Assembly (NCBI GenBank): GCA_029224465.1
Contig: JAQXUQ010000006.1
Coordinates: 124,001 to 188,000 of the forward strand
Length of the DNA: 64,000 nucleotides
Source of the DNA: Bacillota bacterium
GTDB taxonomy: Bacteria; Bacillota; Clostridia; Lachnospirales; Lachnospiraceae
Direction: 5' to 3'
This document shows positions 1,515-46,891 of the stretch, piece after piece (positions within the stretch are counted from its first letter, which is position 1; each line of letters begins with the position of its first letter). The translations under genes were made by a program, and so were the position numbers. The notes under the pieces are model-generated. The model had not been told where the DNA came from. It was given only the letters and a program-made list of their open reading frames with translations, and searched no databases.

Positions 1515-1576
1515 TAGTCCTTGGTCATAAGTTACTCGCAGGTTATTAATTCATCGATATAGGAGAGAAAAGTCTT

Positions 1577-2590: not shown

Positions 2591-2727
2591 AAAGATTTGC
2601 ACACCCCTGAAAATTGGCCAGAGTATGTAAGTCAGATCCATCTTTGTGACCAAGTGTTCTTTCTAAGCCCTTTATAATGGATATCTGCATTTTGCATATG
2701 GTATTCTCAGATCAAAGGAGAATTATC

Positions 2728-3138: not shown

Positions 3139-3156
3139 GAAGTAGGTGCATTGCTC

Positions 3157-6220: not shown

Positions 6221-6262
6221 AAGTGTGTTTCAACATTGTTTTAAATAGGAAAATCGACAGAA

Positions 6263-7006: not shown

Positions 7007-7014
7007 ATAAGGGT

Positions 7015-8010: not shown

Positions 8011-8050
8011 AAAAATAGTAAACAGAGAACTAACTGTAAAATCTGGAATA

Positions 8051-10678: not shown

Positions 10679-10690
10679 TCAGAAACGGAT

Positions 10691-11497: not shown

Positions 11498-11503
11498 CAG
11501 GAA

Positions 11504-12208: not shown

Positions 12209-12274
12209 AACGCATGGCACTTGCGGACAATTTTGCGGCGGCAGTTGCAGAGCGCCGGTTTCAGGGGAGAAAAC

Positions 12275-12664
12275 ATGCCGATTTCATTACGAGTTTTGCT
12301 GATTATCGCTTCCATCATAACAACCCTCTTTATCGCGTCCAGAATTCGTAAATCCAGATTGCGGCTGCTGGATGGGTTCGTCTGGTTTCTGATGTCACTG
12401 ATCCTTCTGGTTATCAGTATCTTTCCGCATATTATCTACTGGCTTTGCCGGGTGATGGGAATAACATCGCCTGTAAATCTGGTCTATCTGGTTATGATTT
12501 TCCTGTTGTTTATGATATGCTTCTACAGCGCTGTCAGAATCTCTGCTCTGGAGGCAAGGCTTGCGGGGCTCGCGCAGGAAGTCGCGATTCGGGATGAGCG
12601 GTTCCTGCACTTGAAGACGGCGGATGACAAGAGGGAACGTGTGTCCGGGGAGAAGGCGCAATAG
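12275..12664 (+). CDS. DUF2304 small membrane protein
   Basis: A 129-residue protein with three to four hydrophobic segments and a charged helical tail (SALEARLAGLAQEVAIRDE). The family is repeatedly found next to DPM1-like GT2 genes and is thought to act in presenting or flipping the polyprenyl-linked sugar, though this is not proven. The start at the ATG at 12275 is chosen because AGGGGAG lies at 12263-12269; a longer frame from 12221 has no such site. Confidence 0.8.
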   Translation: MPISLRVLLIIASIITTLFIASRIRKSRLRLLDGFVWFLMSLILLVISIFPHIIYWLCRVMGITSPVNLVYLVMIFLLFMICFYSAVRISALEARLAGLAQEVAIRDERFLHLKTADDKRERVSGEKAQ

Positions 12665-12718
12665 GGGTAAGTAAGGCAGAGAAAAACAGTCGGAAGCAGA
12701 GAGGATGACAACGCGGAG

Positions 12719-16166: not shown

Positions 16167-16184
16167 CATTGGGCGAGGTCAGAT

Positions 16185-17010
16185 ATGGGAGCTTCTACAG
16201 AACGCAATTACGGCTTGGATTTATTAAGGATCATTGCCATATATTTTGTTGTCCTGACACATTGCGCAACAAAGAGTCAGTTCGCATTTCCCGATGTCTT
16301 TTCCTTCAATCGACTGGCAGCTCAGCTTTGTATGGTAGGGGGATTTGCAGATGGCCTTTTCTTTATGCTATCCAGTTATTTCTAATACAATACCATACAG
16401 ATTTGAGACACATCGCAAGGAAAACAGGCAGGATTATTGCAAAGTCATTTGTATACAGCACGGTTTTACTATTCATATTTCAATGGCCGAATATAAGACT
16501 GCACCAGATCTATGATACTGTGTTTTCGGTCATTGATGGGAAGTACTGCTTCATCACAGTTTACATTGTGATTTAATTGTTTCATCCATATATTACTGTT
16601 TGTTTGAATAACCTGTGCGAATATCAGTGTAAACAGATGTTGATGCTGCAATTATCCTCTGGATCATTGTCCACGGAATTTTCCAATTTGATGTGGGGTC
16701 GGAACTTCGATGATTTCATACGGACTGATGATGTATTCGATTGGAGTGTATCTGTGCATTCATCCGGTGGAAATTCATCACAGGAAATTGCTGATCGACA
16801 TGTTTATTACAACATTTATATTGAGAACATGCTTTTATTATTTGTCAGACAAAGAAATATTATTACCGTGAATCAGCCAGATACTAGATAGTCAGTTAGA
16901 ATCTGTTCAAAGCATAACATTTTGTTACCGACTATTCTGGTCGAAACAGCTATGGTATATATTTCCTGCAGTTTGTTTGACTGGATTTTTGACAAATGTA
17001 TTTTGAATAA
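16185..17010 (+). pseudogene. Decayed acyltransferase 3 family gene
   Basis: The first 66 codons read as a normal acyltransferase 3 N-terminus (YGLDLLRIIAIYFVVLTHC, then GLFFMLSSYF). The frame breaks at a TAA at 16383, where a one-base shift near 16380 restores the family text (LIQYHTDLRHIARKTGRI). A second break is the TAA at 16574, between VYIVI and LFHPYITVCLNNL. Recognisable text continues through further shifts to about 17010. At least three lesions make it non-functional. It was probably another O-acetyltransferase of this locus; the end is approximate. Confidence 0.82.
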
Positions 17011-17055
17011 ATTTTAGGTTGAATATTAGTCTGATTTGCTCAACAGATAACAGTT

Positions 17056-18780
17056 ATGAAATGCATTGTAATGATAAGAAAAGTTGTGTTTGGGATCATA
17101 TGGTGGTGTATGGCATTAAATTTGGGATATCTTTTTATTGCCAGTATATTTAGCACGAGTTGCCTCGGATCAGTGGAAAACATGTTTGCAGCTGATGCCG
17201 GAACACTATTAGTTAATTCGGAGCATACATTTTATATCCGTGATCACTGGTGGGGGCATCTGATTGTATTCGTAGTTTTCACTGCAATTGTCTCTCTCTA
17301 TCATAAAGCATTTGGTATTACGGGCAGAGAGAAAAAACATAACCGTGACACAAAGCAATCAGCTTTAGTCTTGTCAATAGCATTTGTGTTGATGCTATTA
17401 ATCATTACCTTGTGCGATTTTTATCCCAAAACAGATCAAAAACATATCATGGAACTAGCGGGGGAGTTTCTGCATCACAATTATTCGTCACTGAATGCAG
17501 GAGAATATTTAGACAAATTTCCGCAGCAGTATGGAATACTGTTCTTCTATATGGCTTTGTCAAGAATTTTTGGGTGCAACAATTATATTGCTTTTGAGAT
17601 CGTTAATGCTGTCTTAATCGCACTTACGTACTGGGTATTTTCTGGAACGGCGAGTAAATTAATTCCCGATCTCCCTGCTATTAATACTGCAATATGGTCA
17701 ATTATCTTTATTCCGTACTTATTTTATTCCTTATTAATTTACGGGACTGTGGTAGGACTTTTTTTATCGTGTTGTTCCATCGCTTTAATTTGCCGATATG
17801 TTGAGAATAATCACTTAGTCTTTTTAATTGCTTCGGCTTTATTTATAGCTATTGCTGTAGTTTTAAAGTCTAATTATTCCATTTTCTTTATTGCAGAGGC
17901 AATTTATTTATTATTTCTCCCGCGTTCCAGCAAAAAAATTGTACATGGAATTTCGTGGTGTGCATGCACGATCTTAGTTTTAGTAAGTATTACAGCAGGG
18001 ATACATCAATACATCAAAGTTGTTAATGATGGTATTTTACCGTCCGGTGTACCCAAAGTTGCATGGATTGCAATGGGCCTTCAGGACGGAAAGAACGCAC
18101 CCGGATGGTATAATGGTTTCAATACTGCAGTATATGAAAATTCTAATTATGATACAGGTGTTGCCGAGGAAGCATCCCGAAAAAGTATTCAGAAATCGTT
18201 ACGAAATTTCTCCATAAATAAAACTGACTTTATCACCTTTATGGCAAAAAAGATTCAGTCCCAATGGAACAATCCGACATTTCAAGTATTATGGGAACTT
18301 GAGGGAGAAGCCGGACATATGGATTGGCTTGTTACCGGAAGAGGACGTTTCTTTTTTACAGAATACTGTAATTTCATCCTATCCTTTGTATACGGTTTTG
18401 CTCTATATTATTGGCTTACAGAAACAAAGACTAAAAACTGGAGCGAAATACTCTGCCCTTTATTTTTTTTAGGTGGTTTCACGTTTCATTTGTTTTGGGA
18501 AGCACAATGCCTATATGCCATGCCATATATGATTATGCTTCTTCCTATGAGTGGGAAGGGGATACAACGGTATAGCCAAAAACTGACACAACGGAGAAAC
18601 TATTTACATATGGGAACAATTTGTGTGACAGTTGCTATGGTGGTTTTGATATCCTACACAAAACCTTTTCAAAAAATATTTGCACGTAATGACGATGATC
18701 ACCTGTTCAATACATATTCGCAGAACATTGTTAATTCAGATAAAATGTGTTTTCCTCAGTCTGTTAGGAATTCCAAGTAA
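17056..18780 (+). CDS. Polytopic membrane protein, GT39/PMT-like
   Basis: A 574-residue protein with about a dozen membrane segments. An acidic outside loop (CDFYPKTDQKHIMELAGEF, near residue 117) followed by YLDKFPQQYGILFFYMALSRI resembles GT-C enzymes of the GT39/ArnT type that take sugars from polyprenyl phosphate, but the similarity I can judge by eye is weak. It is strongly AT-rich, like the decayed acyltransferase before it. No clear ribosome binding site is seen before the ATG at 17056. It could also be a glycan polymerase. Confidence 0.68.
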   Translation: MKCIVMIRKVVFGIIWWCMALNLGYLFIASIFSTSCLGSVENMFAADAGTLLVNSEHTFYIRDHWWGHLIVFVVFTAIVSLYHKAFGITGREKKHNRDTKQSALVLSIAFVLMLLIITLCDFYPKTDQKHIMELAGEFLHHNYSSLNAGEYLDKFPQQYGILFFYMALSRIFGCNNYIAFEIVNAVLIALTYWVFSGTASKLIPDLPAINTAIWSIIFIPYLFYSLLIYGTVVGLFLSCCSIALICRYVENNHLVFLIASALFIAIAVVLKSNYSIFFIAEAIYLLFLPRSSKKIVHGISWCACTILVLVSITAGIHQYIKVVNDGILPSGVPKVAWIAMGLQDGKNAPGWYNGFNTAVYENSNYDTGVAEEASRKSIQKSLRNFSINKTDFITFMAKKIQSQWNNPTFQVLWELEGEAGHMDWLVTGRGRFFFTEYCNFILSFVYGFALYYWLTETKTKNWSEILCPLFFLGGFTFHLFWEAQCLYAMPYMIMLLPMSGKGIQRYSQKLTQRRNYLHMGTICVTVAMVVLISYTKPFQKIFARNDDDHLFNTYSQNIVNSDKMCFPQSVRNSK

Positions 18781-18797
18781 TATCAGGGATATGATTC

Positions 18798-19676
18798 ATG
18801 AATAATTTTAAAGACAGGGTAAAGCAGAGTATTGCTCATCAATACTATCAACGCTATATGAGTACTGTACAACATAATGGCCCCATGATTCGTGTTCAGT
18901 CTGTAGACGAAACAATTATGATGTTGCAGAATACAGACCATAGTCTGGTCCGTTTTGGCGACGGTGAACTTACGTTTATTAGAGGAAGAAATCTGCAGTT
19001 GCAGAACAGCAACCGGGAACTTCAGAAACGGCTGGCGGATATACTCGGGTACACGCATGATGGTCTTGTGGTATCTGTTCAGGATATTTTTAATGGGCTT
19101 GATTTTTATGTACCTGCTTCAAAACGATTTTGGGAAGATCATTTTCTCTTCTATCACAAATATTATAATAAGCTATGCAGCCATGACCGAACCTATGCCA
19201 ATACTCTTTTCTCTCGTTGTTATATAACGAGAGAAGACAAGAATGTATGTGATGGGTGGTTTCAAGAGATAAAAATGATCTGGAAGGGAAAGAAAGTTGT
19301 AGTAGTAGAAGGAACACGTACTCATAATGGAGTTGATAATGATTTACTGTCTTTATGCAGCAGTGTTGAGCGCATTCTGATTCCGCCTGCTAACGCATTT
19401 AATGCTTATGATCGAATACTTGCTGCCAGTTGCGAATTTCCTTCAGATAGGCTGTTTTTAATATCTGCAGGAGCATGTGCAAAACCTTTAACTGAGGATT
19501 TGTTCTTAAAAGGTTATCGTGTCATCGATATTGGCAATCTGGATATGGAGTATTCATGGTTTTTAATGAATGCCAAAGAAAAGATTGCGATTCCTAAACA
19601 CAGTATTGTTGGCATAGAAGCAAACAGGAAAGCCGGCTACTTACAGTATTTGGATGAGATACGGCAGGAAATTTAG
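18798..19676 (+). CDS. GT-D fold glycosyltransferase (SP_1767/DUF1792 family)
   Basis: A 292-residue soluble protein with the diagnostic RFGDGE motif at residues 52-57, which binds the metal and nucleotide sugar in the GT-D fold first described for a streptococcal adhesin glycosyltransferase. Later conserved text includes VVVVEGTRTHNGVDND, IPPANAF and ISAGACAKPLTEDL. Such enzymes extend glycans, including O-glycans on serine-rich proteins. It lies 17 bases after the membrane protein gene and before an ABC flippase, so a role in building a lipid-linked oligosaccharide is the likely one here. Confidence 0.86.
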   Translation: MNNFKDRVKQSIAHQYYQRYMSTVQHNGPMIRVQSVDETIMMLQNTDHSLVRFGDGELTFIRGRNLQLQNSNRELQKRLADILGYTHDGLVVSVQDIFNGLDFYVPASKRFWEDHFLFYHKYYNKLCSHDRTYANTLFSRCYITREDKNVCDGWFQEIKMIWKGKKVVVVEGTRTHNGVDNDLLSLCSSVERILIPPANAFNAYDRILAASCEFPSDRLFLISAGACAKPLTEDLFLKGYRVIDIGNLDMEYSWFLMNAKEKIAIPKHSIVGIEANRKAGYLQYLDEIRQEI

Positions 19677-19738
19677 TAAGCTCCGAATTGTTTTTAAAAG
19701 AACATCAATGAAAGAAACATGGCTGAGGAGATCAATAC

Positions 19739-21484
19739 ATGTACGAAAAGATGAAATACATTTTATCATTGAAAGAAAAGATCACGATGGTGTTCCTCTT
19801 CTTTGCCGTATTCATTGGCAGTATTTTTGAATTGATGGGAGTCACGATTTTTATGCCCTTCATTCAGGTACTGATGACACCGGAGCAGATTTATACTAAC
19901 AAGTGGCTGCATTATTTTTACACGTTATTTAACTTTAAAAGCACAACGCAGTACCTGACCGCAATCGCCGGACTGATTATCGTCATTTACGTGGTCAAGA
20001 ATGTGTATCTGATGTGGGAGAAGAACGCAATCTATAAATTCAGCTACAGACTGCAGAAACGAATCTCGGTCAAACTGCTGAAAGCGTATATGTCCGAGCC
20101 GTACACCTTCCATCTCAACCACAACATAGCCGTACTGCAGAGAAGTCTGCAGGAAGATACGGATATGTTTGCCAAGGGCATCATCCATTTCATGGAACTG
20201 CTGATAGAAATTATTGTGTGTGTAGTCCTTGGAATTTATCTGTTTGTTGTCAGTAAGTCCATTACAGTAATTGTGCTGGCGGTGCTGATTCTTACAGTAC
20301 TTATCAGCACAAAGGTTTCGAAGCATGTCGTACTCGATCTCGGCAAGAAGGCGCAGCTCTATAAGGGAAAACTCTATCAGTGGATGAATCAGGCTCTGAG
20401 CGGAATCAAGGAAATCAAGGTTCTGAACAGAGAGAACTATTTCACCACGATATACGAAGACAATTTTGATAAATATACCTATGGCCTGCGTCTCACAAGA
20501 CTGGTCGCCACACTTCCCAGATATATGGTGGAAGCAGGCTGCATGACCGGCCTTCTGCTTGCCGTCATATTGAAGCTGAACTACGGTCAGAAGGAACTGA
20601 TGGATTTTATCCCGCAGCTGAGTGTATTCGCGGTAGCAGCGTTCCGCATGATGCCTTCTGTCGGAAAGATCAACGAGCATTATACGGACATTGTGTACAG
20701 TCTGCCGTCTCTTGACCTGATCTATCATGATCTCAAGGATGTCGACGGCCTGCGCGAGAAGGAAACAAAGAAGAACGCGGGCTGGGAATTCAAAAATCTG
20801 GTTGAGATTAAGAATGTAAGCTACCATTACCCGAATGTGACGGAAGACGTTATTCAAAATGTCTCTTTTAGGATTCCCTGCGGCAAAACAGTTGCCTTCA
20901 CAGGTAAAACCGGCGCCGGTAAAACTACAATGGTCGATATTATATTGGGACTTCTGACACCGCAGATCGGCCACATTTACGCTGACGGAATGGACATCTT
21001 CAAAAATCTCAGGACGTGGCAGAGTGAAATCGGTTATATCCCGCAGGTGATCTACCTGTCGGACGATACAATCCGCCATAATATCGCATTCGGTATTCCG
21101 GAAGAAGAAATTGAAGACGAAAAGGTCATCGAAGCAGCGAAGAAGGCGCAGATTGCGGATTTTATCGATGATCTTGTAGACGGATACGATACATATGTCG
21201 GAGACAGGGGAGTACGCCTGTCCGGCGGTCAGAGGCAGAGAATCGGTATCGCGAGAGCTTTGTATAACGATCCGGAAATCATGGTTCTGGATGAAGCGAC
21301 CTCCGCACTCGATTCGGATACCGAACGGGCGGTCATGGAATCGGTAGACAGTCTGCACAACGAAAAGACAATCATTATTATCGCGCATCGCCTGAAGACA
21401 ATCCGGAACGCGGATATTTTCTATCAGGTTGGTGACGGCAAGGTCACGGAAGTCAGCAAAGAAGAAGTATTTAAAAACGAATAA
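19739..21484 (+). CDS. ABC transporter, PglK-like flippase (fused permease-ATPase)
   Basis: A 581-residue half-transporter: six membrane segments in residues about 15-310 and an ATP-binding domain from about 355. The Walker A motif GKTGAGKTT is at residues 389-397, the signature LSGGQRQR at 494-501, and Walker B IMVLDEATSALD near 513. The layout and length match PglK, which flips lipid-linked oligosaccharides as a homodimer, and its context among glycosyltransferases supports that over drug or protein export. GAGGAG lies just before the ATG at 19739. GC content rises from this gene onward. Confidence 0.84.
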   Translation: MYEKMKYILSLKEKITMVFLFFAVFIGSIFELMGVTIFMPFIQVLMTPEQIYTNKWLHYFYTLFNFKSTTQYLTAIAGLIIVIYVVKNVYLMWEKNAIYKFSYRLQKRISVKLLKAYMSEPYTFHLNHNIAVLQRSLQEDTDMFAKGIIHFMELLIEIIVCVVLGIYLFVVSKSITVIVLAVLILTVLISTKVSKHVVLDLGKKAQLYKGKLYQWMNQALSGIKEIKVLNRENYFTTIYEDNFDKYTYGLRLTRLVATLPRYMVEAGCMTGLLLAVILKLNYGQKELMDFIPQLSVFAVAAFRMMPSVGKINEHYTDIVYSLPSLDLIYHDLKDVDGLREKETKKNAGWEFKNLVEIKNVSYHYPNVTEDVIQNVSFRIPCGKTVAFTGKTGAGKTTMVDIILGLLTPQIGHIYADGMDIFKNLRTWQSEIGYIPQVIYLSDDTIRHNIAFGIPEEEIEDEKVIEAAKKAQIADFIDDLVDGYDTYVGDRGVRLSGGQRQRIGIARALYNDPEIMVLDEATSALDSDTERAVMESVDSLHNEKTIIIIAHRLKTIRNADIFYQVGDGKVTEVSKEEVFKNE

Positions 21485-34712: not shown

Positions 34713-35852
34713 ATGAATTATACCAAAATCATCATCGGCGCAGGACTTTACGGCCTGTATGCGGCAAAACACTGCGGTGAAAAGAAAGAGAAGATTCTGG
34801 TTCTGGAGAAGGATGACAGGGCCTTCGGGCGCGCGACCTATGTGAATCAGGCGAGGGTCCATATGGGGTATCATTACCCGAGGAGCCTATCGACAGCCAC
34901 AAAGTCGGCCGGATATTTCCGCCGTTTCTGCGACGACTTTCCGTTCTGTATTGAAAAAGGTTTCCATCAGATTTACGCGACAAGCAGCCGCTTCTCGTGG
35001 ACGAATGCAGCGCAGTTTCAGGCGTTCTGCGAGGCGGCGGGCATCCGCTGCGAGGAGGCGCCGGCGTCTTTATATTTCAAGGAAGGGATGTGCGACGGCG
35101 CGTTTCTGACAGAGGAGTATACGTATGACGCGATGATTTTGAAGAAATATTTTCTGGACACTTTAAACGCGATGCCGGACGTGACGATCTGCTATAATGC
35201 GAAGATAGAAGACATCGCGCGGTATCCGGATCATTTTGAAGTGCATATGGCCGACGGGAGCGTACATACTACGGATTACATTTTGAACGCGACCTATGCC
35301 TCTACCAATGAAGTCTTAAAACTCGTGGACGGCGTTTCCCACACCGGCTTTAACATTAAGTATGAGCTTTGCGAGATTATCCTGACGAGGGCGTCGGAAA
35401 AGCTGCACGGGATCGGACTTACGGTCATGGACGGACCATTCTTTTCGATTATGCCGTTTGGCAAGACCGGTTACCACTCGCTGACCAGTGTTTCCTTCAC
35501 GCCGCATATGGCAAGCTATGAGCGTCTGCCGGTATTTCCGTGTATGGAACGAAGACAGACGCTGGAAGGGCAGGACAGCTGCCGCCCGGAACAGCTGGCC
35601 AACTGTACGGACTGTCCCTGCCGCCCGGAGAGCGCATGGCCGTATATGAGTCATCTCGCCCGCAAGTACATGCGCGATGATTATGCATTTACCTATCAGG
35701 GATCTTTGTATTCGATGAAACCGATTCTGAAATCTTCGGAAGTCGATGATTCGAGGCCGACGGCGATCCGCGTGAACAGCGAGTATCCGCGGCTGGTCAG
35801 TGTTTTGTCCGGAAAAATCAATACCGTGTATGATCTGGAGGAATTTCTGTAA
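34713..35852 (+). CDS. FAD-dependent oxidoreductase (DAO/amine-oxidase-like)
   Basis: A 379-residue flavoprotein. The N-terminal dinucleotide-binding loop is IIGAGLYGLYAA (G-x-G-x-x-G, residues 7-18) followed by the acidic end of the second strand in VLEKDD. The following VHMGYHYPRS stretch recalls UDP-galactopyranose-mutase-like and DAO proteins. A cysteine-rich block, CTDCPCRPESAW near residue 297, is odd for the family and could bind a metal. It heads an operon with GT2, aminotransferase, GtrA and GT-C genes, so its substrate is probably a sugar or a lipid-linked sugar. Exact reaction unknown. Confidence 0.75.
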   Translation: MNYTKIIIGAGLYGLYAAKHCGEKKEKILVLEKDDRAFGRATYVNQARVHMGYHYPRSLSTATKSAGYFRRFCDDFPFCIEKGFHQIYATSSRFSWTNAAQFQAFCEAAGIRCEEAPASLYFKEGMCDGAFLTEEYTYDAMILKKYFLDTLNAMPDVTICYNAKIEDIARYPDHFEVHMADGSVHTTDYILNATYASTNEVLKLVDGVSHTGFNIKYELCEIILTRASEKLHGIGLTVMDGPFFSIMPFGKTGYHSLTSVSFTPHMASYERLPVFPCMERRQTLEGQDSCRPEQLANCTDCPCRPESAWPYMSHLARKYMRDDYAFTYQGSLYSMKPILKSSEVDDSRPTAIRVNSEYPRLVSVLSGKINTVYDLEEFL

Positions 35853-36814
35853 TGGACCTTGCGCAGAACAGGGAACACAAATTTGTCTCGGCAGTCATGT
35901 ATCTGCATAACGACGCCGCTTATATTGATCTGTTCCTATCCATGATCACACAGGAGCTGGCAGCGCTCTTCGACAAGTATGAGCTGATTTTTGTCAATGA
36001 CGCGTCTTCGGACGACGGAATCGCGAAGATCTACGATTTCTTCGAGAACACGAAGATGGATTCGCAGATGGTGAGCATCATTCAGATGAGTCACTATCAG
36101 GGACAGGAAGCCGCAATGAACGTCGGAAGGGATCTCGCGATCGGCGATTTTGTCTTCGAATTCGACAATCTGTTTATTGATTACCCGAAAACGATGATCC
36201 GGAAGATATATGAACGGACGCTGGAAGGATACGATGTTGTCGCGGCGAGCTGCCGGGACGGCATGCGGTTTACGAGCAGGCTGTTTTACAGCGTCTTCAA
36301 CAGAAACAGCAACTCCGAGGGAAAGATCGGACCCGAAACATTCCGGATTCTGTCGAGACGCGCGGTCAACCGGATCAAATCTATCGGAGATTATATTCCG
36401 TACCGCAAGGCAATCTACATGAACTGCGGGCTGCGGGCAGATGTGATCGAATATCACGCGATCGACATCGACGCGCGCAGAAAGGCGCTGAAAGGCAGGC
36501 ACGAGAGAACACATCTGGCGCTCGACAGTCTGATCTATTTCACGGATGTCATGGAGAAGGTTTCCACGGTCATCAGTGTTGTTTTTGTCGTGATTTCGCT
36601 GCTGATGGGCATCGAAATCATCCGGGAGTTCTGCATGAAGACGCAGGCGGTGTCCGGCTGGCTTTCAACGATGGGATTCATGTCGCTGTCTTTCATGGGC
36701 GTATTCATTCTGCTCAGCATCATTATGAAATATCTGTCGGTGATCTTGAAGCTCATGTATCAGAAACAGCGCTATCTGATCGCCGGTGTCGAGAAAATCG
36801 CGCCTAAACAGTAG
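35852..36814 (+). CDS. GT2 polyprenyl-phosphate glycosyltransferase with two C-terminal TM segments
   Basis: A 320-residue protein with the GtrB/ArnC architecture: a GT2 domain (residues 8-215) and two membrane helices (about 230-252 and 270-298). It has FVNDASSDDGI and SHYQGQEAAMNVGRDLA, the lipid-phosphate-transferase version of the conserved blocks. The place that normally reads DADLQDPP reads EFDNLFIDYP, keeping one Asp of the metal site. It should load a sugar onto undecaprenyl phosphate. Start overlaps the upstream stop by one base. Confidence 0.85.
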   Translation: MDLAQNREHKFVSAVMYLHNDAAYIDLFLSMITQELAALFDKYELIFVNDASSDDGIAKIYDFFENTKMDSQMVSIIQMSHYQGQEAAMNVGRDLAIGDFVFEFDNLFIDYPKTMIRKIYERTLEGYDVVAASCRDGMRFTSRLFYSVFNRNSNSEGKIGPETFRILSRRAVNRIKSIGDYIPYRKAIYMNCGLRADVIEYHAIDIDARRKALKGRHERTHLALDSLIYFTDVMEKVSTVISVVFVVISLLMGIEIIREFCMKTQAVSGWLSTMGFMSLSFMGVFILLSIIMKYLSVILKLMYQKQRYLIAGVEKIAPKQ

Positions 36815-36823
36815 GAGAGGGAC

Positions 36824-37588
36824 ATGGAAATCAATCTGCTGTTTCCTGTGCTGAACGAGCACAGGAGACTCGAAAACGGAATCGAAAAAACCGTCCGCTA
36901 CATGCAGGCATACGTGCAGAAGGACCCGTCTGTCCGGTATTTATGCACGATTCTGGACAATGGTTCGACCGACGATACGCCGCAGATCGGCGCTGCGCTT
37001 GCCGCACGTTATCCCGGCACGGTGGAGTATGTTCGGATCGAGGCAAAGGGTGTCGGTATCGCTTTCCGTACCGGCGTGGAGAAGAGTCATGCGGATATTG
37101 TCGGATATATGGATATTGATCTGTCCACGGATATCGTGAATCTCGGCAAAACCATCCGGCTCTTCCAGCAAAACCCGTCCTTGGATTATGTCAACGGGAC
37201 ACGGTTTTCAGATGATTCGAAAACGATCGGGCGCAGGTGGTACCGGAAGATTACGTCGGCGGGGCTGGTTTTTCTCCTGAAAACAACGCTTCACATGAAA
37301 GCGACGGACGGAATCTGCGGCTTTACGTTTATGCGGATTTCCGCCGCGAAAAAGCTGGTTGCCGAGGCAGGTAATGACAACGGCTGGTTTTACATGATCG
37401 AGATTCTGCTGCGCGCAGAGCGCGCCGGCATGCGGATCATCGATCTGCCGGTTACGTTTACCGAGAATTATGACACGACCGTCAACGTGAAGAAAACGGT
37501 TTTGAATTATCTGCAGAGAATCCGTCAGCTGCGAAGGACATTCGCGGAAGAAGACAGAAGAGGAAAAGGCAATGCTGAAAAGAGTTGA
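36824..37588 (+). CDS. GT2 glycosyltransferase (DPM1-like)
   Basis: A 254-residue soluble GT2 enzyme. It has FPVLNEHRRLENGI, LDNGSTDDT, KGVGIAFRTGVEKS and GYMDIDLSTD with the metal-binding D-x-D near residue 92. This text is close to polyprenyl-phosphate sugar synthases, making two such enzymes side by side. AGGAGAGGG precedes the ATG at 36824. Its last 17 bases overlap the aminotransferase gene, so the two are coupled. Confidence 0.85.
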   Translation: MEINLLFPVLNEHRRLENGIEKTVRYMQAYVQKDPSVRYLCTILDNGSTDDTPQIGAALAARYPGTVEYVRIEAKGVGIAFRTGVEKSHADIVGYMDIDLSTDIVNLGKTIRLFQQNPSLDYVNGTRFSDDSKTIGRRWYRKITSAGLVFLLKTTLHMKATDGICGFTFMRISAAKKLVAEAGNDNGWFYMIEILLRAERAGMRIIDLPVTFTENYDTTVNVKKTVLNYLQRIRQLRRTFAEEDRRGKGNAEKS

Positions 37589-38669
37589 TCTGAAACGGGA
37601 TTTTGACAGGCACAGGCAGGAGTATCTGGACGCGATTACAAAGTGCTGTGAGGATACTGCGTTTTCGGGCGGCAGATACGCGGATCAGTTCGACCGCGAA
37701 TTCGCGGAGTATCTCGGTGTTCAGGCAGCGAGCGGCGTCAACAACGGAACTTCGGCGCTGCACCTTGCGATGCTCTGCCTCGGAATCGGAGCCGGAGATG
37801 AAGTCATTGTGCCCGCAAATACCTATATCGCGACGGCCTGGGGCGTGACCTATACGGGCGCGGTACCGGTCTTTGTCGACTGTACGGCAGACACCTGGGA
37901 GATTGATCCTTCCCGGATTGAAGCGAAGATCACGCCGAGGACGAAGGCGATTATCGGCGTGCATCTTTACGGGCAGCCGTTCGATTTCGGCGCGGTGAAG
38001 GAAATCGCGGACCGGCACGGCCTCTATGTCGTGGAAGACTGCGCGCAGGCGGCAGGAGCCGCCTATGAAGGCGTAAAAGTCGGCGGTCTCGGCGATATCG
38101 GCTGCTACAGTTTCTATCCCGGCAAGAATCTGTATGCTTTCGGCGAAGGCGGAAGCGTTGTGTCGAATACGCAGGAATACATCGACAAGGTGAATGTCTA
38201 TAAGAATCAGGGCTGCCGTGTCCGCTATTATCATGAAGTCGTCGGATACAATATGCGGCTCGAAGGCATTCAGGGCGCGGTCATGAGCGTCAGCCTGCAG
38301 TATCTCGATCAGTGGAACGAGAGGCGTACCGAACTGGGTCACCGCTATGAGACCGGCATTACGAATCCTCTGGTGACACTGCAGCGGCACCCCGCGAACA
38401 CAACGCCGGTATATCATCTGTTCGAGGTGCAGGTTCCGGAGCCCGACAAGTTCCTGCAGTACATGAAAGACGCAGAAGTCGAGTGCAACCGCCATTATCC
38501 GGTGCCGTGTCATCTGCAGAAAGCCTACGCTGATCTTGGCTACAAGGCAGGGGACTGCCCGAATGCGGAGAAGCTTGCTTCCCGCTGCGCAACGCTTCCG
38601 ATGTTCCCTGAAATGACGGACGAAGAGTGCGATATGGTCATTGATCTGGTAAACCGCTATAAGGGGTGA
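37572..38669 (+). CDS. DegT/DnrJ/EryC1/StrS family sugar aminotransferase
   Basis: A 365-residue PLP enzyme that converts a keto-sugar to an amino sugar. The PLP-binding Lys is Lys185 in SFYPGKNLYAFGEGG. Other family blocks are GVNNGTSALHLAM (cofactor phosphate side), PANTYIATA, VEDCAQAAGA (Asp contacting the pyridine nitrogen) and the C-terminal NRHYPVPCHLQKAY. Length is normal. The keto-sugar could come from an external 4,6-dehydratase or from the FAD oxidoreductase of the same operon. It is followed at once by a GtrA gene. Confidence 0.92.
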   Translation: MLKRVDLKRDFDRHRQEYLDAITKCCEDTAFSGGRYADQFDREFAEYLGVQAASGVNNGTSALHLAMLCLGIGAGDEVIVPANTYIATAWGVTYTGAVPVFVDCTADTWEIDPSRIEAKITPRTKAIIGVHLYGQPFDFGAVKEIADRHGLYVVEDCAQAAGAAYEGVKVGGLGDIGCYSFYPGKNLYAFGEGGSVVSNTQEYIDKVNVYKNQGCRVRYYHEVVGYNMRLEGIQGAVMSVSLQYLDQWNERRTELGHRYETGITNPLVTLQRHPANTTPVYHLFEVQVPEPDKFLQYMKDAEVECNRHYPVPCHLQKAYADLGYKAGDCPNAEKLASRCATLPMFPEMTDEECDMVIDLVNRYKG

Positions 38670-38671
38670 TT

Positions 38672-39079
38672 TTGAAAAAGATCAGGAATATTCTGCATAC
38701 GGAATTTTTCCGGTACTGCGTGATCGGCGCCGCAACGACCCTGCTGGATCTATCGGTCTATTATGTCCTTGTTGAGATATTTCGCTATGACCCGAACATC
38801 TGCAATGTGATCTCGATCAGCGCATCCATTATGTTCGCGTATGTCGCGAACAAGCTGTTCGTTTTCCGGACGCACTGCGGGTCTTTTGGCGCGCTGCTTC
38901 TGGAAATCGCGAAATTCTGGAGCAGCCGGATCGGCACGATGTTTCTCGAAATCGGCGGTGTGTTCGTGCTCACAATGCTCGGGTGGGACGGCTTTGCCTC
39001 AAAGCTCGCAACACAGATCGTGATTTTTGTGGCTAATTATCTTCTGAGTAAATTCTTTGCGTTTCGCGGGAAGGAATAA
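38672..39079 (+). CDS. GtrA family membrane protein
   Basis: A 135-residue protein with four membrane segments and the family N-terminus EFFRYCVIGAATTLLDLSVY. GtrA proteins are thought to flip or present polyprenyl-phosphate sugars. I place the start at the TTG at 38672, five bases after AAGGGG; a GTG at 38666 overlapping the upstream stop is the alternative. It links the GT2 loading enzymes upstream to the GT-C-like gene downstream. Confidence 0.87.
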   Translation: MKKIRNILHTEFFRYCVIGAATTLLDLSVYYVLVEIFRYDPNICNVISISASIMFAYVANKLFVFRTHCGSFGALLLEIAKFWSSRIGTMFLEIGGVFVLTMLGWDGFASKLATQIVIFVANYLLSKFFAFRGKE

Positions 39080-39089
39080 GCAAATCGTG

Positions 39090-40721
39090 ATGAAAAAAAT
39101 GCAAACGGAGAAGTTTCGTTGGACCGGGCAGATCTCTTTGCGGAAATTATCGGCTGTGCTCGCCGCCATATATGTGCTGGGACTCCTTCCGGTATTCGCG
39201 ATCGCAAGATATAACTACGCGTCCGCGGATGACTTCGGCATGGGACTTGCGGCTTACCGCGCGTTTTCTTCTACCGGAAACATCTTTGCCGCGATCGGAC
39301 AGGGCTTCTACATGGCCTGGTACGATTATATTCACTGGATGGGATATTTCACATCGACGGTCTTTATGTCGGTTCCGCCGAATGTATTTGACGAGCGGCT
39401 GTATCCGGTCGGCGTTTTTATACTGATTTTCATGCTGACGGCAGGAACGCTGTACTTTTTCCGCGCTTTATTTGTCAAAGCACTTCGGATCGACAGATAC
39501 GCCTCCCGCTGCCTTGCGCTTGTGACACTCCTTGTCACGGTGCAGTGCCTGCCGGAGGGCAGCGCCAGAGTCGAATCGTTTTTCTGGTATTGCAGCGGTG
39601 TCAACTATGTGCTGCTGTACAGTTTCGGACTGTTCTGGCTGGGGCTTCTGATTTCGGCCGTCTTCGATCAAAGCCGCGGGAAGAGAATCTATGATCTTGT
39701 CATGGCCTGCATCCTCGGTTTTGCGGTCGGCGGCGGCAACTATATGACCTCACTTTCCTGCGCGATCATTGCGGTCCTTGTGATCATCGCCGCGCTCCGC
39801 TGCCGGCATAAGGAACTTCTGGCGCCGTGCCTGTTCCTGCTGGCCGGCTTCGCGCTTTCCTGCCTTGCGCCCGGCAATAACAACCGTGCGCAGAGTCTGC
39901 AGGGTTTCAGTGCCGTCAAAACAATCCTGATCGCCCTCTACTACACGCTTTCCTACTGCGTGAATGAATATACGACCTGGGCGGTGCTTTTGTTTTTCGC
40001 GCTTGCCGCGGTCATCGCGTGGAAGGCCGCCGAAAAGGTTCCCTTCCGGTTCTCTTATCCTGCGCTTGCCGTGATATTCGGCTATGGCATGGTTTCCGCG
40101 AATATCGCGCCGCCTTTGTACGCAGAGGGCAATATCGGCGCGGGGCGGCTGATCGCGCTCTTTTATATGCAGTATGTTCTGGTGGCGGTGCTTCTGGAAG
40201 TGTATGTCATCGGATGGCTGCGTCAGTATGTAACCGGCCGCGCCGGAGACGCAGCAGACGAGTGCGGCGCAGCGGAAGGGAAAAAGCTTGTCGGGAACCC
40301 GCAGTACACTGCGGAAGACGTGCAGGCAGCCGCGAATGCGGCGAAGCTGTCGGCGGAAGTGAAAGGGGCTGCGGCCGGGGCAAAGCTGTCGGCGGTGATG
40401 TCCGGTGCCGCTGTATTTCTTATGGCTGCGCTGGTTTTCGGCTCCGTGCTGACCGTCAAGGCAGACCCTGACTTTTATATGGCCACTTCGGCGGCGCAGG
40501 ATTTAATGAACGGTCATGCCGCAAGGTATAAGGAGCAGAATGACGGGCGGAGGAAGATTTTAAGGGACACTTCAGTGAAAGATGCGGTGCTGGATGAGTT
40601 TGACTATAAGCCGGATCTTCTGTTCTTCTCGGATATCGAGACCGATCCGTCCAACTGGCAGAATAAGGCGCTTGCCCGGTATTATGGGAAGGACAGTGTT
40701 GTTTTGCGCAGGACGAAGTGA
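39090..40721 (+). CDS. DUF6056 family polytopic membrane protein
   Basis: A 543-residue protein with about 11 membrane segments. The first outside loop has ARYNYASADDFGMGLAAYRA, an acidic pair typical of GT-C-like families including DUF6056 and GtrII. It is probably the enzyme that uses the lipid-linked sugar of this operon. Near residues 395-440 there is an Ala-rich insert with a repeated AKLSA unit (bases about 40240-40400) between membrane segments. The ATG at 39090 is chosen over one at 39057 inside gtrA; the ribosome site AAGGAA is rather far (14 bases). Confidence 0.75.
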   Translation: MKKMQTEKFRWTGQISLRKLSAVLAAIYVLGLLPVFAIARYNYASADDFGMGLAAYRAFSSTGNIFAAIGQGFYMAWYDYIHWMGYFTSTVFMSVPPNVFDERLYPVGVFILIFMLTAGTLYFFRALFVKALRIDRYASRCLALVTLLVTVQCLPEGSARVESFFWYCSGVNYVLLYSFGLFWLGLLISAVFDQSRGKRIYDLVMACILGFAVGGGNYMTSLSCAIIAVLVIIAALRCRHKELLAPCLFLLAGFALSCLAPGNNNRAQSLQGFSAVKTILIALYYTLSYCVNEYTTWAVLLFFALAAVIAWKAAEKVPFRFSYPALAVIFGYGMVSANIAPPLYAEGNIGAGRLIALFYMQYVLVAVLLEVYVIGWLRQYVTGRAGDAADECGAAEGKKLVGNPQYTAEDVQAAANAAKLSAEVKGAAAGAKLSAVMSGAAVFLMAALVFGSVLTVKADPDFYMATSAAQDLMNGHAARYKEQNDGRRKILRDTSVKDAVLDEFDYKPDLLFFSDIETDPSNWQNKALARYYGKDSVVLRRTK

Positions 40722-43012: not shown

Positions 43013-43121
43013 CGGTGCAGAAAGCTTTCGCGGAAAAGATGCGTCTTTAAAATGAGGCGGCTTTGCAGCGGCAGCCGGAAGGCGGCAGACGAAGCCGAAT
43101 GCCGCTTCGGAAGGAGTGAAA

Positions 43122-44231
43122 ATGGTTATTAAGAATGTTGATCTGCAAGGTGCCGGTGTTCTTGTCACCGGCGCGGCAGGGTTTATCGGGAGCGCGCTTT
43201 GCGCGCGGCTTCTGTCGGAATATCCGGGCATCCGCGTAACCGGCATCGACAACATGAACGATTATTATGATGTCGCGATCAAAGAAGAGCGGCTGTCCAA
43301 ACTGTCTTCTGATCCGCGTTTTACGTTTATCCGGGGAGATATTGCTGACAGGGAGCTTGTAACGCGCGTTTTTGCGCAGCACAAACCGGACGTTGTCGTG
43401 AATCTCGCGGCGCAGGCGGGCGTGCGGTATTCGATCACGCATCCGGATTCCTACATCCAGTCCAACCTGATCGGCTTTTACAATATTCTGGAGGCGTGCC
43501 GGCATTCTTATGACGGAGCGGCTGCAGGCAGCACGCAAAACGGTGCGGCAGGATACGCCGGCGTCCGGCACCTGGTCTACGCGTCCAGCTCAAGTGTTTA
43601 CGGAACCAACGCGAAAATCCCGTATTCGACAGACGATAAGGTCGATCATCCGGTGTCGCTCTACGCGGCAACCAAGAAGTCGGATGAGCTGATGGCGCAC
43701 GCTTACGCGAAGCTCTACAATATTCCTTCGACGGGCCTTCGGTTTTTCACGGTTTACGGCGCGGCCGGCCGGCCGGACATGGCTTACTTCGGCTTCACGA
43801 ACAAGCTGCGGGCAGGAGAGAAGATCCGCATCTTCAACTTTGGTCACTGCAAGCGGGATTTCACGTACATCGATGACATCGTTGAAGGTGTCGTGCGTGT
43901 GATGCAGGGCGCTCCTGAACGCCAAAACGGCGCAGACGGCCTCCCCATCGCGCCATATCGTATCTACAACATCGGGAACGGACATCCGGTCGATCTTCTC
44001 GACTTCGTGGACATTTTGCAGCAGGAGCTGGTTGCGGCTGATGTTCTGCCGCGGGATTATGATTTTAATGCCCATAAAGAACTGGTTCCGATGCAGCCGG
44101 GGGATGTGCCGGTGACTTATGCGGACACGACGGCGCTGGAGCAGGATTTCGGCTATCGGCCCAAAACAGACCTGCGCACCGGCCTCCGCACTTTCGCCGT
44201 ATGGTATAAAAAGTTTTACTGTAAAGGATAA
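43122..44231 (+). CDS. NAD-dependent epimerase, UDP-glucuronate 4-epimerase-like
   Basis: A 369-residue short-chain dehydrogenase/epimerase. It has GAAGFIGSAL (NAD-binding G-x-x-G-x-x-G), GIDNMNDYYDVAIK, which is typical of UDP-glucuronate 4-epimerases, NLAAQAGVRYSI, SSSSVYG and the catalytic Y-x-x-x-K in YAATKKSDEL. It probably makes UDP-galacturonate for the surface glycan. Two short low-complexity inserts (near residues 130-146 and 268-278) interrupt normally conserved spacing. Start at the ATG at 43122, six bases after AAGGAG. Confidence 0.87.
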   Translation: MVIKNVDLQGAGVLVTGAAGFIGSALCARLLSEYPGIRVTGIDNMNDYYDVAIKEERLSKLSSDPRFTFIRGDIADRELVTRVFAQHKPDVVVNLAAQAGVRYSITHPDSYIQSNLIGFYNILEACRHSYDGAAAGSTQNGAAGYAGVRHLVYASSSSVYGTNAKIPYSTDDKVDHPVSLYAATKKSDELMAHAYAKLYNIPSTGLRFFTVYGAAGRPDMAYFGFTNKLRAGEKIRIFNFGHCKRDFTYIDDIVEGVVRVMQGAPERQNGADGLPIAPYRIYNIGNGHPVDLLDFVDILQQELVAADVLPRDYDFNAHKELVPMQPGDVPVTYADTTALEQDFGYRPKTDLRTGLRTFAVWYKKFYCKG

Positions 44232-44234
44232 AAA

Positions 44235-45122
44235 ATGGCAGAATATAAAGACTATATGATCCGGGCAATTGCGGCGAATGACGAAATCCGCGCCTTTGCT
44301 GTAACCAGCAGAAATCTGGTCGAGGCGGCCAGAGAAGCGCACAATACCAGCCCGCTCGCTACCGCAGCCCTCGGGCGCACGATGAGCGCGGCTGTTATGA
44401 TGAATGACATGCTCAAGAATGAAGACGATCTGCTGACGCTCCAGTTTAACGGCGACGGGCCGCTCGGGCAGATCACGGTGACTGCGGACCATCATGGCAA
44501 TGTGAAAGGTTTTGTACAGAATACGAATGTCGAGCTTCCGCTGAAAGCGGACGGGCATCTCGATGTCGGACACGGCGTCGGAAAAGGAACTTTGACGGTG
44601 ATCCGGGACCTTGACGACGGTAAAACATACAACGGCCAGGTGGAAATCCACTCCGGAGAGATCGCGGATGACATTACGCATTATTTTGCCGAATCGGAAC
44701 AGGTGCCTTCTTCGGTCGGACTGGGTGTCCTTGTCGATACGGACCGCACGGTTCGCAAGGCGGGCGGTTTCATTATTCAGCTGATGCCGTTTACGAGTGA
44801 TGAGACGATAGACCGTCTGGAGAAGAATCTCAAAGGGATTCCCTATGTTACGGAAATGCTCGAAGAAGGTCTGGATCCGGAAGGTATGCTGGGGAGAGTT
44901 CTGGATGGATTCGATGTTCGCCTGACCGGCAAAATGCCGGTGCAGTTTCACTGTAACTGTACACGGGACCGTGTGGAGCGGGCGCTTATGCTGCTGGGAG
45001 AGCCGGAACTTGTGTCGATGATCGAAGCCGGTAAAGATGTTGAGCTCGCATGTCAGTTCTGCGGTAAGAAGTACCGTTTTTCTGTTGATGATCTGAAAAA
45101 GATCCGCGAGGGATTATGCTGA
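44235..45122 (+). CDS. hslO: Hsp33 redox-regulated chaperone
   Basis: A 295-residue Hsp33. Under oxidation it loses zinc, unfolds its linker and holds unfolding proteins. The C-terminal zinc site is complete: C-N-C near residue 237 and C-Q-F-C near residue 270. The N-terminal domain starts YKDYMIRAIAANDEIRAF and carries GRTMSAAVMM. It starts three bases after the epimerase stop, and its stop overlaps the next gene by seven bases. A housekeeping stress gene embedded among glycan genes. Confidence 0.96.
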   Translation: MAEYKDYMIRAIAANDEIRAFAVTSRNLVEAAREAHNTSPLATAALGRTMSAAVMMNDMLKNEDDLLTLQFNGDGPLGQITVTADHHGNVKGFVQNTNVELPLKADGHLDVGHGVGKGTLTVIRDLDDGKTYNGQVEIHSGEIADDITHYFAESEQVPSSVGLGVLVDTDRTVRKAGGFIIQLMPFTSDETIDRLEKNLKGIPYVTEMLEEGLDPEGMLGRVLDGFDVRLTGKMPVQFHCNCTRDRVERALMLLGEPELVSMIEAGKDVELACQFCGKKYRFSVDDLKKIREGLC

Positions 45123-46891
45123 GTGTACTGCTGATCTATGGCGTGATTTTCATCACAACATACTGGCTGGGACGCGGACTTCTGCGGCTGCTCGGACTTA
45201 ACCCTTCCGGTGCGGATGCCATACTGTATTCCATGACCGGGATAGCTGTGGCCGGATTTTATGCGCAGGCATGGAGTATCTTCGGCGGCGTATCGGCGGC
45301 AGCGTTTACTGTATATGCGCTGCTGGCTTTTGCCGCAGCGGTTCTACTGCGCGCGCGCGGCGGGCGGCAGGCGGGTGACCGGCAGATGCGTGTCCGGGGA
45401 GTCTGTGGCAGCAGGCGGCAGGCGCCACGTATCTTCGCGCGTGCGACCGTCTGTGATTCCGAATCCGCCGGCAGGTACGCGCAGGCGGCGCTGGCCTTTG
45501 CGCTGGTCATGATTTTTGCGTATGCGGCTTCCCGCGGTTACATTCATTACGACACGGACCTTTACCACGCGCAGAGCATTCACTGGATTGAAAAGTACGG
45601 CGCAGTCCGCGGACTCGGAAATCTTCATACAAGGCTTGGCTATAACAGCGCCGCTTTCCCGCTTACGGCGCTTTTTTCGTTCTCTTTTCCGGGAGAGCAG
45701 TCCTATCATGCTGTCTCGGGGTATCTTGCGCTTATGCTGGCGCTGGAGTCTTCCAGGCTTTTTACGCAGTGCAGAAGGCTGTTGTCGCTTCGGCTTCTTC
45801 CTTCGGATTTTGTACGGCTTTCGGCTATGTTTTACCTGTTCGCGGTGATTGATGAAATTGTTTCGCCTGCGTCGGATTATTACATGGTCTGTTTGGCGTT
45901 CTATATTTTCATCCGTTTTTTGGATGACGGAGAGGACGATGTAAATTCGAAAGACGCCGCTGCGCTTCATCTTGATATTGTGCTTTGCTTTCTTACGGTG
46001 TTTACGGTAACGATCAAGTTGTCAGCGGTCATGATACTGCTCATCAGTCTGCTGCCGATTGCGGAACTTTCGCGCAGGAAAGATTTCAGGAGAATTGCAG
46101 TTACGGCCATTTTGTGCGCCGGCACTGCGGTTCCGTTTTTCATCAGAAATGTGATCCTGACCGGATATCTGGTGTACCCTTTTCCAGAACTTGATTTATT
46201 CCATGTCATCTGGAAAGTACCGGCAGGCGTCGCAGCCTCGGATGCCGCAGAAATCGCTGCGTATGGCAAGGGCATTACAGACCCTTCGCACTTTGGAGAT
46301 CGTATTTCGGTCTGGCTGCGGCCGTGGTTTGCGGCGCAGGCGGGTGTTGACCGCATGGCAATTCTTGCGGGGGCGGTGCTGGTAATTCCGGCGGCCGTTG
46401 TTTTGCTCCTTGAAATAAAAAGAAGAGAGCAGGGCGCCGTGCGGCAGCTGGCTTTTCTGGGGGTGTGTTTGGCGTGCACGGTGTTCTGGTTTGTGCAGGC
46501 GCCGCTGTTCCGGTACGGCTGCGTTTTTGTGTATTCACTGGCAGCCTTCTCAGCCGGTGTAATCGTCGCTGCAGTGTTCGGCAAGTTTCGGGAAAGACCG
46601 CGGCGAATGCTTCTGCGCGGCTTTCTGGTATTCAGCATCTTATTTGTGCTGTATAAGTGTGCGGCGGTTATACGGGAAGGAACTTTACTCCGGGAACACG
46701 GTTATCTTATCAGCCAGAAAGACTACGGAACGTATCCGATGGAAGAGTATTTGATCGACGGAGTGAAATTTTACCGTCCGGTCATCGGAGACAGGAGCGG
46801 GTATGCGCCGTTTCCTTCGACGCCGACGGACAGGAGCGCGCAGGTGCGGATGATCGGCGAATCCGTCAGGGATGGATTTTGTGTAAAGTGA
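45116..46891 (+). CDS. Large polytopic membrane protein, LIC_10190-like
   Basis: A 591-residue protein with about 13 membrane segments. The block YIHYDTDLYHAQSIHWIEKY followed by GLGNLHTRLGYNSAAF (residues about 141-182) matches the LIC_10190-type family, which looks like GT-C enzymes; function is not established. Residues about 80-123 form an Arg/Gly/Ala-rich cytoplasmic insert (bases about 45345-45480) that is GC-rich. It overlaps hslO by seven bases. Probably another glycan-tailoring enzyme. Confidence 0.72.
   Translation: MLSVLLIYGVIFITTYWLGRGLLRLLGLNPSGADAILYSMTGIAVAGFYAQAWSIFGGVSAAAFTVYALLAFAAAVLLRARGGRQAGDRQMRVRGVCGSRRQAPRIFARATVCDSESAGRYAQAALAFALVMIFAYAASRGYIHYDTDLYHAQSIHWIEKYGAVRGLGNLHTRLGYNSAAFPLTALFSFSFPGEQSYHAVSGYLALMLALESSRLFTQCRRLLSLRLLPSDFVRLSAMFYLFAVIDEIVSPASDYYMVCLAFYIFIRFLDDGEDDVNSKDAAALHLDIVLCFLTVFTVTIKLSAVMILLISLLPIAELSRRKDFRRIAVTAILCAGTAVPFFIRNVILTGYLVYPFPELDLFHVIWKVPAGVAASDAAEIAAYGKGITDPSHFGDRISVWLRPWFAAQAGVDRMAILAGAVLVIPAAVVLLLEIKRREQGAVRQLAFLGVCLACTVFWFVQAPLFRYGCVFVYSLAAFSAGVIVAAVFGKFRERPRRMLLRGFLVFSILFVLYKCAAVIREGTLLREHGYLISQKDYGTYPMEEYLIDGVKFYRPVIGDRSGYAPFPSTPTDRSAQVRMIGESVRDGFCVK

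Follow-up and report, generated by a model that had tools for sequence, protein, structure and literature searches.

What does a gene cassette that joins a flavin enzyme to two glycosyltransferases, an aminotransferase and two membrane proteins build in a Lachnospiraceae-type bacterium? The cassette lies in a 64,000-nucleotide stretch of the Bacillota bacterium assembly GCA_029224465.1 (contig JAQXUQ010000006.1, positions 124,001–188,000 of the forward strand), which we call the window and whose own numbering we use throughout. It comprises six plus-strand genes, at 34713–35852, 35852–36814, 36824–37588, 37572–38669, 38666–39079 and 39090–40721, whose neighbouring ends overlap or are separated by gaps of about 10 bases. 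An earlier, sequence-only reading had described them as an Arn-like amino-sugar transfer module in a Gram-positive setting, and the Lachnospiraceae-type genome agrees with that setting. Our analysis points to a somewhat different answer, to which we give a probability of roughly 0.45: the cassette would make an amino sugar on a polyprenyl-phosphate carrier, destined for a cell-surface polymer.

The six genes stand in the order that had been claimed, each above its curated Pfam cut-off: DAO with NAD_binding_8, Glycos_transf_2, a second Glycos_transf_2, DegT, GtrA_DPMS_TM and DUF6056. Lack of co-occurrence in other genomes had been named as a ground for refutation, and it did not apply, as the genes do occur together elsewhere. 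The gene for the flavin adenine dinucleotide (FAD) protein, whose closest record (95% identity) comes from uncultured Lachnospiraceae bacterium RUG304, is rare at phylum level (4 of 398 genomes) and was found in 8 of 37 genomes of the same genus, the window's own being counted in both. All eight same-genus carriers also have the GtrB-like gene, the second, soluble family 2 glycosyltransferase (GT2) that we call GT2b, and DegT; DUF6056 was found in seven, and the full set of six in four, with GtrA and DUF6056 searched for by similarity to the window's proteins. In two of these four genomes the order is DUF6056, GtrB-like, FAD, GT2b, DegT, GtrA. Gene order alone is ruled out as a definition of the unit, as the order differs in loci L136 and L138. 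The FAD, GtrB-like, GT2 and DegT genes remain together in distant genomes, and the grouping of this four-gene core is not due to chance. The six genes are thus a real unit, but their Arn interpretation is right only in part: amino-sugar transfer genes are present together with a flavin enzyme, GtrA and a multi-helix last protein, whereas homology to ArnB and ArnC did not hold.

At the centre of the core is a constant pair. The FAD-dependent oxidoreductase (34713–35852, plus strand; 379 residues; DAO superfamily, Pfam DAO 45.6 bits), our candidate for the keto-sugar maker, and the GtrB-like protein go together. Among 200 genomes of the family, the FAD protein (E-values up to 1e-20) and the GtrB-like protein (up to 1e-40) were each found in 15, and the 15 genomes are identical; the chance of this would be about 7e-23 if the two were independent, a figure that shows only a link far from chance, since the genomes are related and the cut-offs were of our own choosing. 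We also collected 80 loci, the closest of 104 confirmed FAD-protein relatives and a sample that leans to near relatives, in which gene calls were weighted by conservation and complemented by profile searches. A GtrB-like gene was present in all 80 and, according to the gene calls, directly adjoined the FAD gene in 74; in L090 it lies about 5 kb away on the opposite strand. Cultured relatives are represented by Kineothrix alysoides (L034) and Acetobacterium (L051–L053).

Two motifs of the FAD protein, NQARxHxGxHYPRS and DGxFxSxxP, are kept with no more than a single exception at any position across 88 sequences, of which nine are proteobacterial. Its best NCBIfam match, a weak one, is glycerol-3-phosphate oxidase (29.5 bits for the window and 44.8 for L054, cut-off 460). 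Four cysteines, C277, C290, C298 and C301 (35541–35615, plus strand), are likely to form a metal or iron–sulphur site: in 79 aligned rows from Bacillota, Bacteroidales-recorded genomes and Actinomycetota, three of the positions are cysteine in 79 of 79 and the fourth in 78, with one X. The four were not found at the aligned places of the nine proteobacterial homologues, which rules out that they are required for the chemistry of the protein everywhere. The alignment holds 78 of the 80 loci and the window (L055 and L094, with the FAD protein inside longer frames, were left out), and the tree 87 rows (without L030, which has an X, and with the nine proteobacterial rows added); another alignment, A1, holds 57 of the 80 loci and the window.

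The partner of the FAD protein (35852–36814, plus strand) had been read as a GtrB/ArnC-type GT2. Its architecture is that of GtrB: in a 300-residue alignment with the Synechocystis enzyme (GtrB_Syn, residues 12–311), a GT-A domain is followed by two C-terminal hydrophobic helices, as judged by crude hydropathy, which predicts none in the soluble GT2. However, the catalytic residues of GtrB are lost. In the Synechocystis protein, the DXD motif binds metal, D157N abolishes activity, and changes of R122, R200 or R290 abolish or badly harm it (PMC4728340); by analogy with Q93 of DPMS (PMC5526996), we counted Q98 among the active-site positions. The window's protein has EFDNL in place of the DXD motif (codons 103–107; 36158–36172, plus strand). 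The second aspartate of the motif is present in 0 of 75 FAD-adjacent copies, the window included, and in 18 of 20 non-adjacent ones, the remaining two being split or displaced FAD-linked copies.

Quantification over 77 FAD-linked copies gave the same picture; besides the window's copy, the set contains 74 that adjoin the FAD gene and two that are split or displaced (L085 and L090), and it leaves out L094 and three loci cut by contig ends (L061, L066 and L089). D96, D157 and R290 are retained in none, R122 in one, R200 in two (lysine in 17) and Q98 in three, whereas 74 copies have D94, 77 have Y140 and 76 have A216. In the 18 other GtrB-like proteins of the same loci, D96 and Q98 are retained in 18, R200 in 17, D157 in 12, R122 in 10 and R290 in 9. 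Taking D96, Q98, R122, D157, R200 and R290 together, and accepting conservative swaps at the last four, FAD-linked copies retain none (55 copies), one (19) or two (3) of the six positions and the 18 others four to six; the window's copy has L, I, C, T, I and V. Given the loss of these residues, we reject a reading of the first GT2 as an ordinary ArnC or GtrB enzyme, and the protein is probably a pseudo-glycosyltransferase, without transferase activity of its own.

The enzyme that charges the lipid is likely the soluble GT2b (36824–37588, plus strand). It had been called DPM1-like, in agreement with its DPMS match of 44 bits and its lack of helices, and hydropathy predicted no helix in any of the soluble GT2s that we examined. 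R117, R131 and S135 of DPMS contact the acceptor phosphate, and D91 and Q93 the metal (PMC5526996); D89, D91, R117, R131 and S135 are all present in 35 of 35 GT2b proteins, consistent with a polyprenyl-phosphate sugar synthase. A second family of soluble GT2, gt2F2, accompanies the pair at loci of another type, described below. It has D89, R117 and R131 in 38 of 38 members, with N for D91 and K for Q93, also in 38 of 38. Given these residues at the DPMS metal positions, the family (L054:9198–10004) is perhaps a metal-free polyprenyl-phosphate transferase. Three loci (L047, L057 and L072) have no gt2F2, and a second GtrB-like protein with the motif EADLQD lies beside or near the pair.

Across the loci, DegT is one of several interchangeable modules beside the pair. 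Type A loci, such as the window, combine GT2b with DegT; type B loci combine a short-chain dehydrogenase/reductase (SDR), weakly RmlD-like, and a TIM barrel protein, whose matches are keto-sugar epimerases and isomerases, with gt2F2, the SDR and TIM barrel being fused in 7 loci; and type C, marked by an aldo/keto reductase, comprises three loci recorded as Bacteroidales. A Gfo/Idh/MocA protein follows GT2b in L123, which belongs to another sample than the 80. Flanks of at least 4.5 kb on each side are available for 53 loci, of which 25 have only DegT, 22 only SDR/TIM barrel, three the aldo/keto reductase, one both modules (with DegT 9 kb away) and two none. The corresponding numbers for all 80 loci are 30, 38, 3, 1 and 8, and six of the eight module-less loci have a flank shorter than 4.5 kb on one side or both. 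Among loci with full flanks, GT2b is present in 24 of 26 with DegT and gt2F2 in 19 of 23 with SDR/TIM barrel. The 15 family genomes with the pair divide into six with GT2b and nine with the TIM barrel, with zero overlap, and DegT adjoins GT2b in five of the six, the window included. Mapped onto the FAD tree, type A requires three changes, and starred branches force at least two of them (a quick method, with long branches flagged). Score thresholds for the locus scans were set by us, for example 300 bits for DegT and 150 bits for DUF6056. As the module enzymes commonly act on or make a carbonyl, the simplest common input would be a ketone supplied by the flavin enzyme. Near the pair, six loci (L022, L023, L026, L034 and L039 of type A, and L079 of type B) also have FkbH-like, acyl carrier and MBOAT families together, assigned by Pfam on representatives, and in L026 the set is joined by a GDSL protein and a DltD-like protein, the latter below cut-off. 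This acyl-transfer set may acylate the new sugar.

The aminotransferase (37572–38669, plus strand; PF01041, 387.5 bits) had been assigned to the ArnB type, an assignment that its scores contradict: the window's DegT reaches 326 bits with 7b0d, 320 with QdtB, 294 with 2oga, 270 with 7n63, 251 with 5u1z, 220 with perosamine synthetase, 208 with WbpE and only 165 with ArnB. We take 2oga to be DesV and 5u1z to be WlaRG, and assume that QdtB, DesV, WlaRG and WbpE act at C-3 of the sugar, and perosamine synthetase, PseC and ArnB at C-4. In L097 and L051, QdtB is the top match of DegT (480 and 384 bits, versus 193 and 177 for an ArnB-annotated entry), and three kinds of type A DegT all score QdtB above ArnB-type entries, a ranking by score without a tree of known enzymes. 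Against the NCBIfam ArnB model, the window's protein scores 205 bits (cut-off 631). The DegT profile has 22 members more than 60% identical to the window's protein. By score, DegT would thus be a sugar aminotransferase of the C-3 type.

GtrA and DUF6056 are variable parts of the cassette. The GtrA-family membrane protein (38666–39079, plus strand; PF04138, 68.6 bits) may serve as flippase or membrane partner, and the DUF6056 protein (39090–40721, plus strand; PF19528, 52.3 bits) is a putative GT-C-type transferase. The DUF6056 gene has an ATG at 39090, and its open frame extends to a TTG at 39057. PF19528 is matched by 13 of 13 aligned members, the window's included, and the GT-C role is proposed on the basis of about eight hydrophobic helices and a nearly invariant D47–D48 after the first of them. 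Among the 80 loci, 12 gave a DUF6056 match, and every one of these also has DegT; L074, of type B, has a more distant member of the DUF6056 cluster below our score threshold. Eleven of the 80 loci, all of them without DegT, have an EamA pair downstream, and in the one pair scanned the proteins match ArnE and ArnF below the cut-offs. In L140, the eighth same-genus carrier, a relative (31%) of another membrane protein of the window takes the DUF6056 place after the core; the window's copy (45116–46891) belongs to the LIC_10190 family (NCBIfam, 260.7 bits, cut-off 100).

Similar cassettes are found on plasmids of Proteobacteria. Homologues of the FAD protein at 24–34% occur on twelve plasmid records, nine of which were read. 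All nine loci have an annotated TIM barrel or sugar-phosphate isomerase; five have an SDR-type oxidoreductase and the other four a hypothetical protein in its place. GtrA adjoins the FAD gene at six and an SMR protein at one. Psychrobacter plasmid pA22P4 (L103, 10782 bases) has a seven-gene cassette of about 6.3 kb, more than half of the plasmid, consisting of SDR, TIM barrel, SMR, FAD, an unannotated GtrB-like frame, a soluble GT2 and a multi-helix protein; relaxase genes are also present, and the plasmid was not mentioned in the open-access literature that we searched. Against the GtrB-like profile, the partners in Azospirillum (103 bits) and Psychrobacter (99 bits) are clear homologues, and four Rhodobacterales partners give weak matches (10 to 28 bits). 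The Sphingomonas and Rhodobacter sp. CZR27 partners have no profile match and are taken as homologues from their position and two helices. In eight proteobacterial partners, the first aspartate of the DXD motif is present in one and the second in two, both together in none, and D157 in none.

Together, these observations suggest the following route, whose reactions and order we infer from gene content. The soluble GT2 would load a hexose from a nucleotide sugar onto polyprenyl phosphate. The pseudo-GtrB would keep the FAD protein at the membrane and present the lipid-linked sugar to it; the FAD protein would then oxidise one hydroxyl to a ketone, most likely at C-3, and DegT would convert the ketone to an amine. 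GtrA would flip the lipid-linked amino sugar across the membrane, and DUF6056 would transfer it to a putative outer polymer. We place the oxidation on a polyprenyl-phosphate sugar because the partner of the FAD protein is the membrane pseudo-GtrB. A more general form of the proposal, to which we give a little less weight, is that a DAO-type flavoenzyme and a pseudo-glycosyltransferase form a widespread, undescribed machine that oxidises a sugar held on polyprenyl phosphate and in which a plug-in enzyme picks the rare sugar to be exported. The plug-in, equally tentatively, could be an aminotransferase, an epimerase plus a reductase, an aldo/keto reductase or a Gfo/Idh/MocA oxidoreductase.

Several results weigh against the carrier-level route to a 3-amino sugar. 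The best NCBIfam model for the window's DegT is the C-4 enzyme PseC (233 bits, below cut-off), we assign no specificity to its top-scoring entry, 7b0d, and perosamine synthetase outranks WbpE. QdtB-type aminotransferases, and SDRs of the superfamily found in type B, normally use nucleotide sugars. A dTDP-glucose dehydratase is present in the window's genome. The ketoisomerase FdtA was not found in that genome, which is 96% complete, a result in favour of the route; its presence in four of nine genomes searched (eight of type A and the one with Gfo/Idh/MocA) weakens this argument in general. Residue loss alone is no proof that the GtrB-like protein is inactive, six of the eight proteobacterial partners have arginine at R122, and no two-helix partner was seen at the Mesorhizobium locus, the most distant one, with the FAD protein at 24%. 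GT2b has serine for Q93 of DPMS in 35 of 35 members, and R202 is replaced. The genes read at L084, L095 and L097 include no soluble GT2 of either kind and no ordinary GtrB, and the model does not account for these loci. GtrA stands beside the core in only four of the eight same-genus FAD carriers, and in the 200-genome sample the stretches read at the other five GT2b-type loci gave no GtrA and no DUF6056. One genome (G023, 60% complete) has the TIM barrel but not the pair.

The same enzymes could act before the carrier is loaded. The FAD protein would then oxidise a nucleoside diphosphate (NDP)-hexose, DegT would make an NDP-3-amino sugar and the soluble GT2 would load it, leaving the pseudo-GtrB as a membrane dock. 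This is possible, though we think it considerably more often wrong than right: the nearest solved relatives of DegT are, as we understand their substrates, nucleotide-sugar aminotransferases, and D50, retained in at least 90% of 75 aligned FAD-linked GtrB copies, may belong to a nucleotide site, whereas the FAD protein is most constantly accompanied by a membrane protein from the polyprenyl-glycosyltransferase family and the proteobacterial partners have lost the intact DXD pair. We consider it unlikely that the pseudo-GtrB only anchors or stimulates the soluble GT2 and has no direct link to the FAD enzyme. Glycosyltransferases paired with a separate membrane protein are known (PMC8035078), and the helix-free soluble GT2s would suit such an arrangement, but the FAD protein and pseudo-GtrB persist when the soluble GT2 switches between GT2b and gt2F2, and also in the three loci with a second, EADLQD-bearing GtrB-like protein instead of a soluble GT2.

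Two further explanations seem to us very improbable. In one, the FAD enzyme would work without net oxidation, like UDP-galactopyranose mutase, and yield a furanose or an epimer. Flavin mutases exist and the NAD_binding_8 match would fit one, but the Pfam match to DAO and the weak first NCBIfam match to glycerol-3-phosphate oxidase fit an oxidase, and the alternative module partners commonly act on carbonyls. The other is the Arn-like route to a 4-amino sugar of the sequence-only reading. It gains from the consecutive DegT, GtrA and multi-helix protein, from the PseC match, from the EamA pair of type B loci with its ArnE/ArnF matches below cut-off, and from a weak match of a nearby SDR to the dehydrogenase half of ArnA (38.9 bits, cut-off 777 in NCBIfam). 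Yet DegT scores far higher with QdtB than with ArnB, a probable pseudo-enzyme occupies the place of ArnC, and in the 80 loci the EamA pair accompanies genes of the other branch and in no case DegT. Within the six genes and the SDR, the part of the genome searched for them, nothing matched ArnA (dehydrogenase or formyltransferase) or the ArnD deformylase above cut-off. On the DegT scores and the lack of formylation genes above cut-off among the scanned genes, we reject a plain Arn homologue.

This SDR (43116–44231, plus strand; Pfam), UDP-sugar epimerase-like, is the epimerase-like gene that had been noted nearby and is at most a candidate member of the cassette. The 25 NCBIfam matches listed for it, of 27, are all under cut-off, and relatives (53–54%) lie upstream of the FAD/GtrB-like pair in L024, L025, L028, L030 and L035. 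The rnf operon directly upstream of the cassette was weighed as a functional link and judged a chance neighbourhood, as few loci share it. Relatives of rnfB/rnfC adjoin the module in the window, L019 and L134, the latter two probably from one genome, and an RnfC-like gene lies further away in L045; one same-genus genome (G627, probably identical to the RUG304 record) has the cassette after rnf genes as in the window. Positions 1–20000 of the window form a glycan gene region with a G+C content of 0.35–0.47 per 2 kb, versus mostly 0.52–0.57 beyond 30000, and were perhaps acquired.

No description of the FAD/pseudo-GtrB/module unit was found in the open-access literature that we searched, where DUF6056 was not mentioned either. 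The cassette resembles the multi-component transmembrane glycosylation systems made of a GT-A polyprenyl-phosphate-sugar synthase, a GtrA flippase and a GT-C transferase (PMC8035078): the logic of the carrier is the same, and both have a GtrA-family protein and a last protein with many helices. Unlike those three-component systems, it has an extra FAD oxidoreductase, a pseudo-GtrB and an exchangeable module enzyme, and its likely synthase is the soluble DPM1-like GT2. The epimerisation of decaprenyl-phosphoryl ribose by the oxidase DprE1 and the reductase DprE2 offers a proposed likeness, as a polyprenyl-phosphate sugar is oxidised and its ketone then processed (PMC11127046). In the cassette, by contrast, the FAD enzyme matches DAO and would work with a pseudo-GtrB, and the window's version would output an amine. 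DprE1 belongs to a flavoprotein family other than DAO. With the ArnB-C-EF-T pathway for lipid A aminoarabinose, the cassette shares an amino sugar and, as proposed here, a polyprenyl carrier, a flippase and a multi-helix transferase, whereas its DegT is far nearer QdtB than ArnB, formylation genes are unmatched, no working ArnC-like gene occupies that place and there is no lipid A. The WbpB/WbpE and QdtA/QdtB routes to 3-amino sugars are alike in the QdtB-like aminotransferase, by score; as we understand those routes, the cassette differs in having no dehydratase or ketoisomerase among its six genes and a flavin enzyme in place of the nicotinamide adenine dinucleotide (NAD) enzyme or isomerase.

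If the carrier-level route is true, rare surface sugars could be built after carrier loading, by a general oxidise-then-tailor unit beyond the nucleotide-sugar routes, and a conserved pseudo-glycosyltransferase would gain a candidate function. The signature of FAD protein, pseudo-GtrB and module would then predict modified sugars in Clostridia, Acetobacterium, genomes recorded as Bacteroidales and Alphaproteobacteria.

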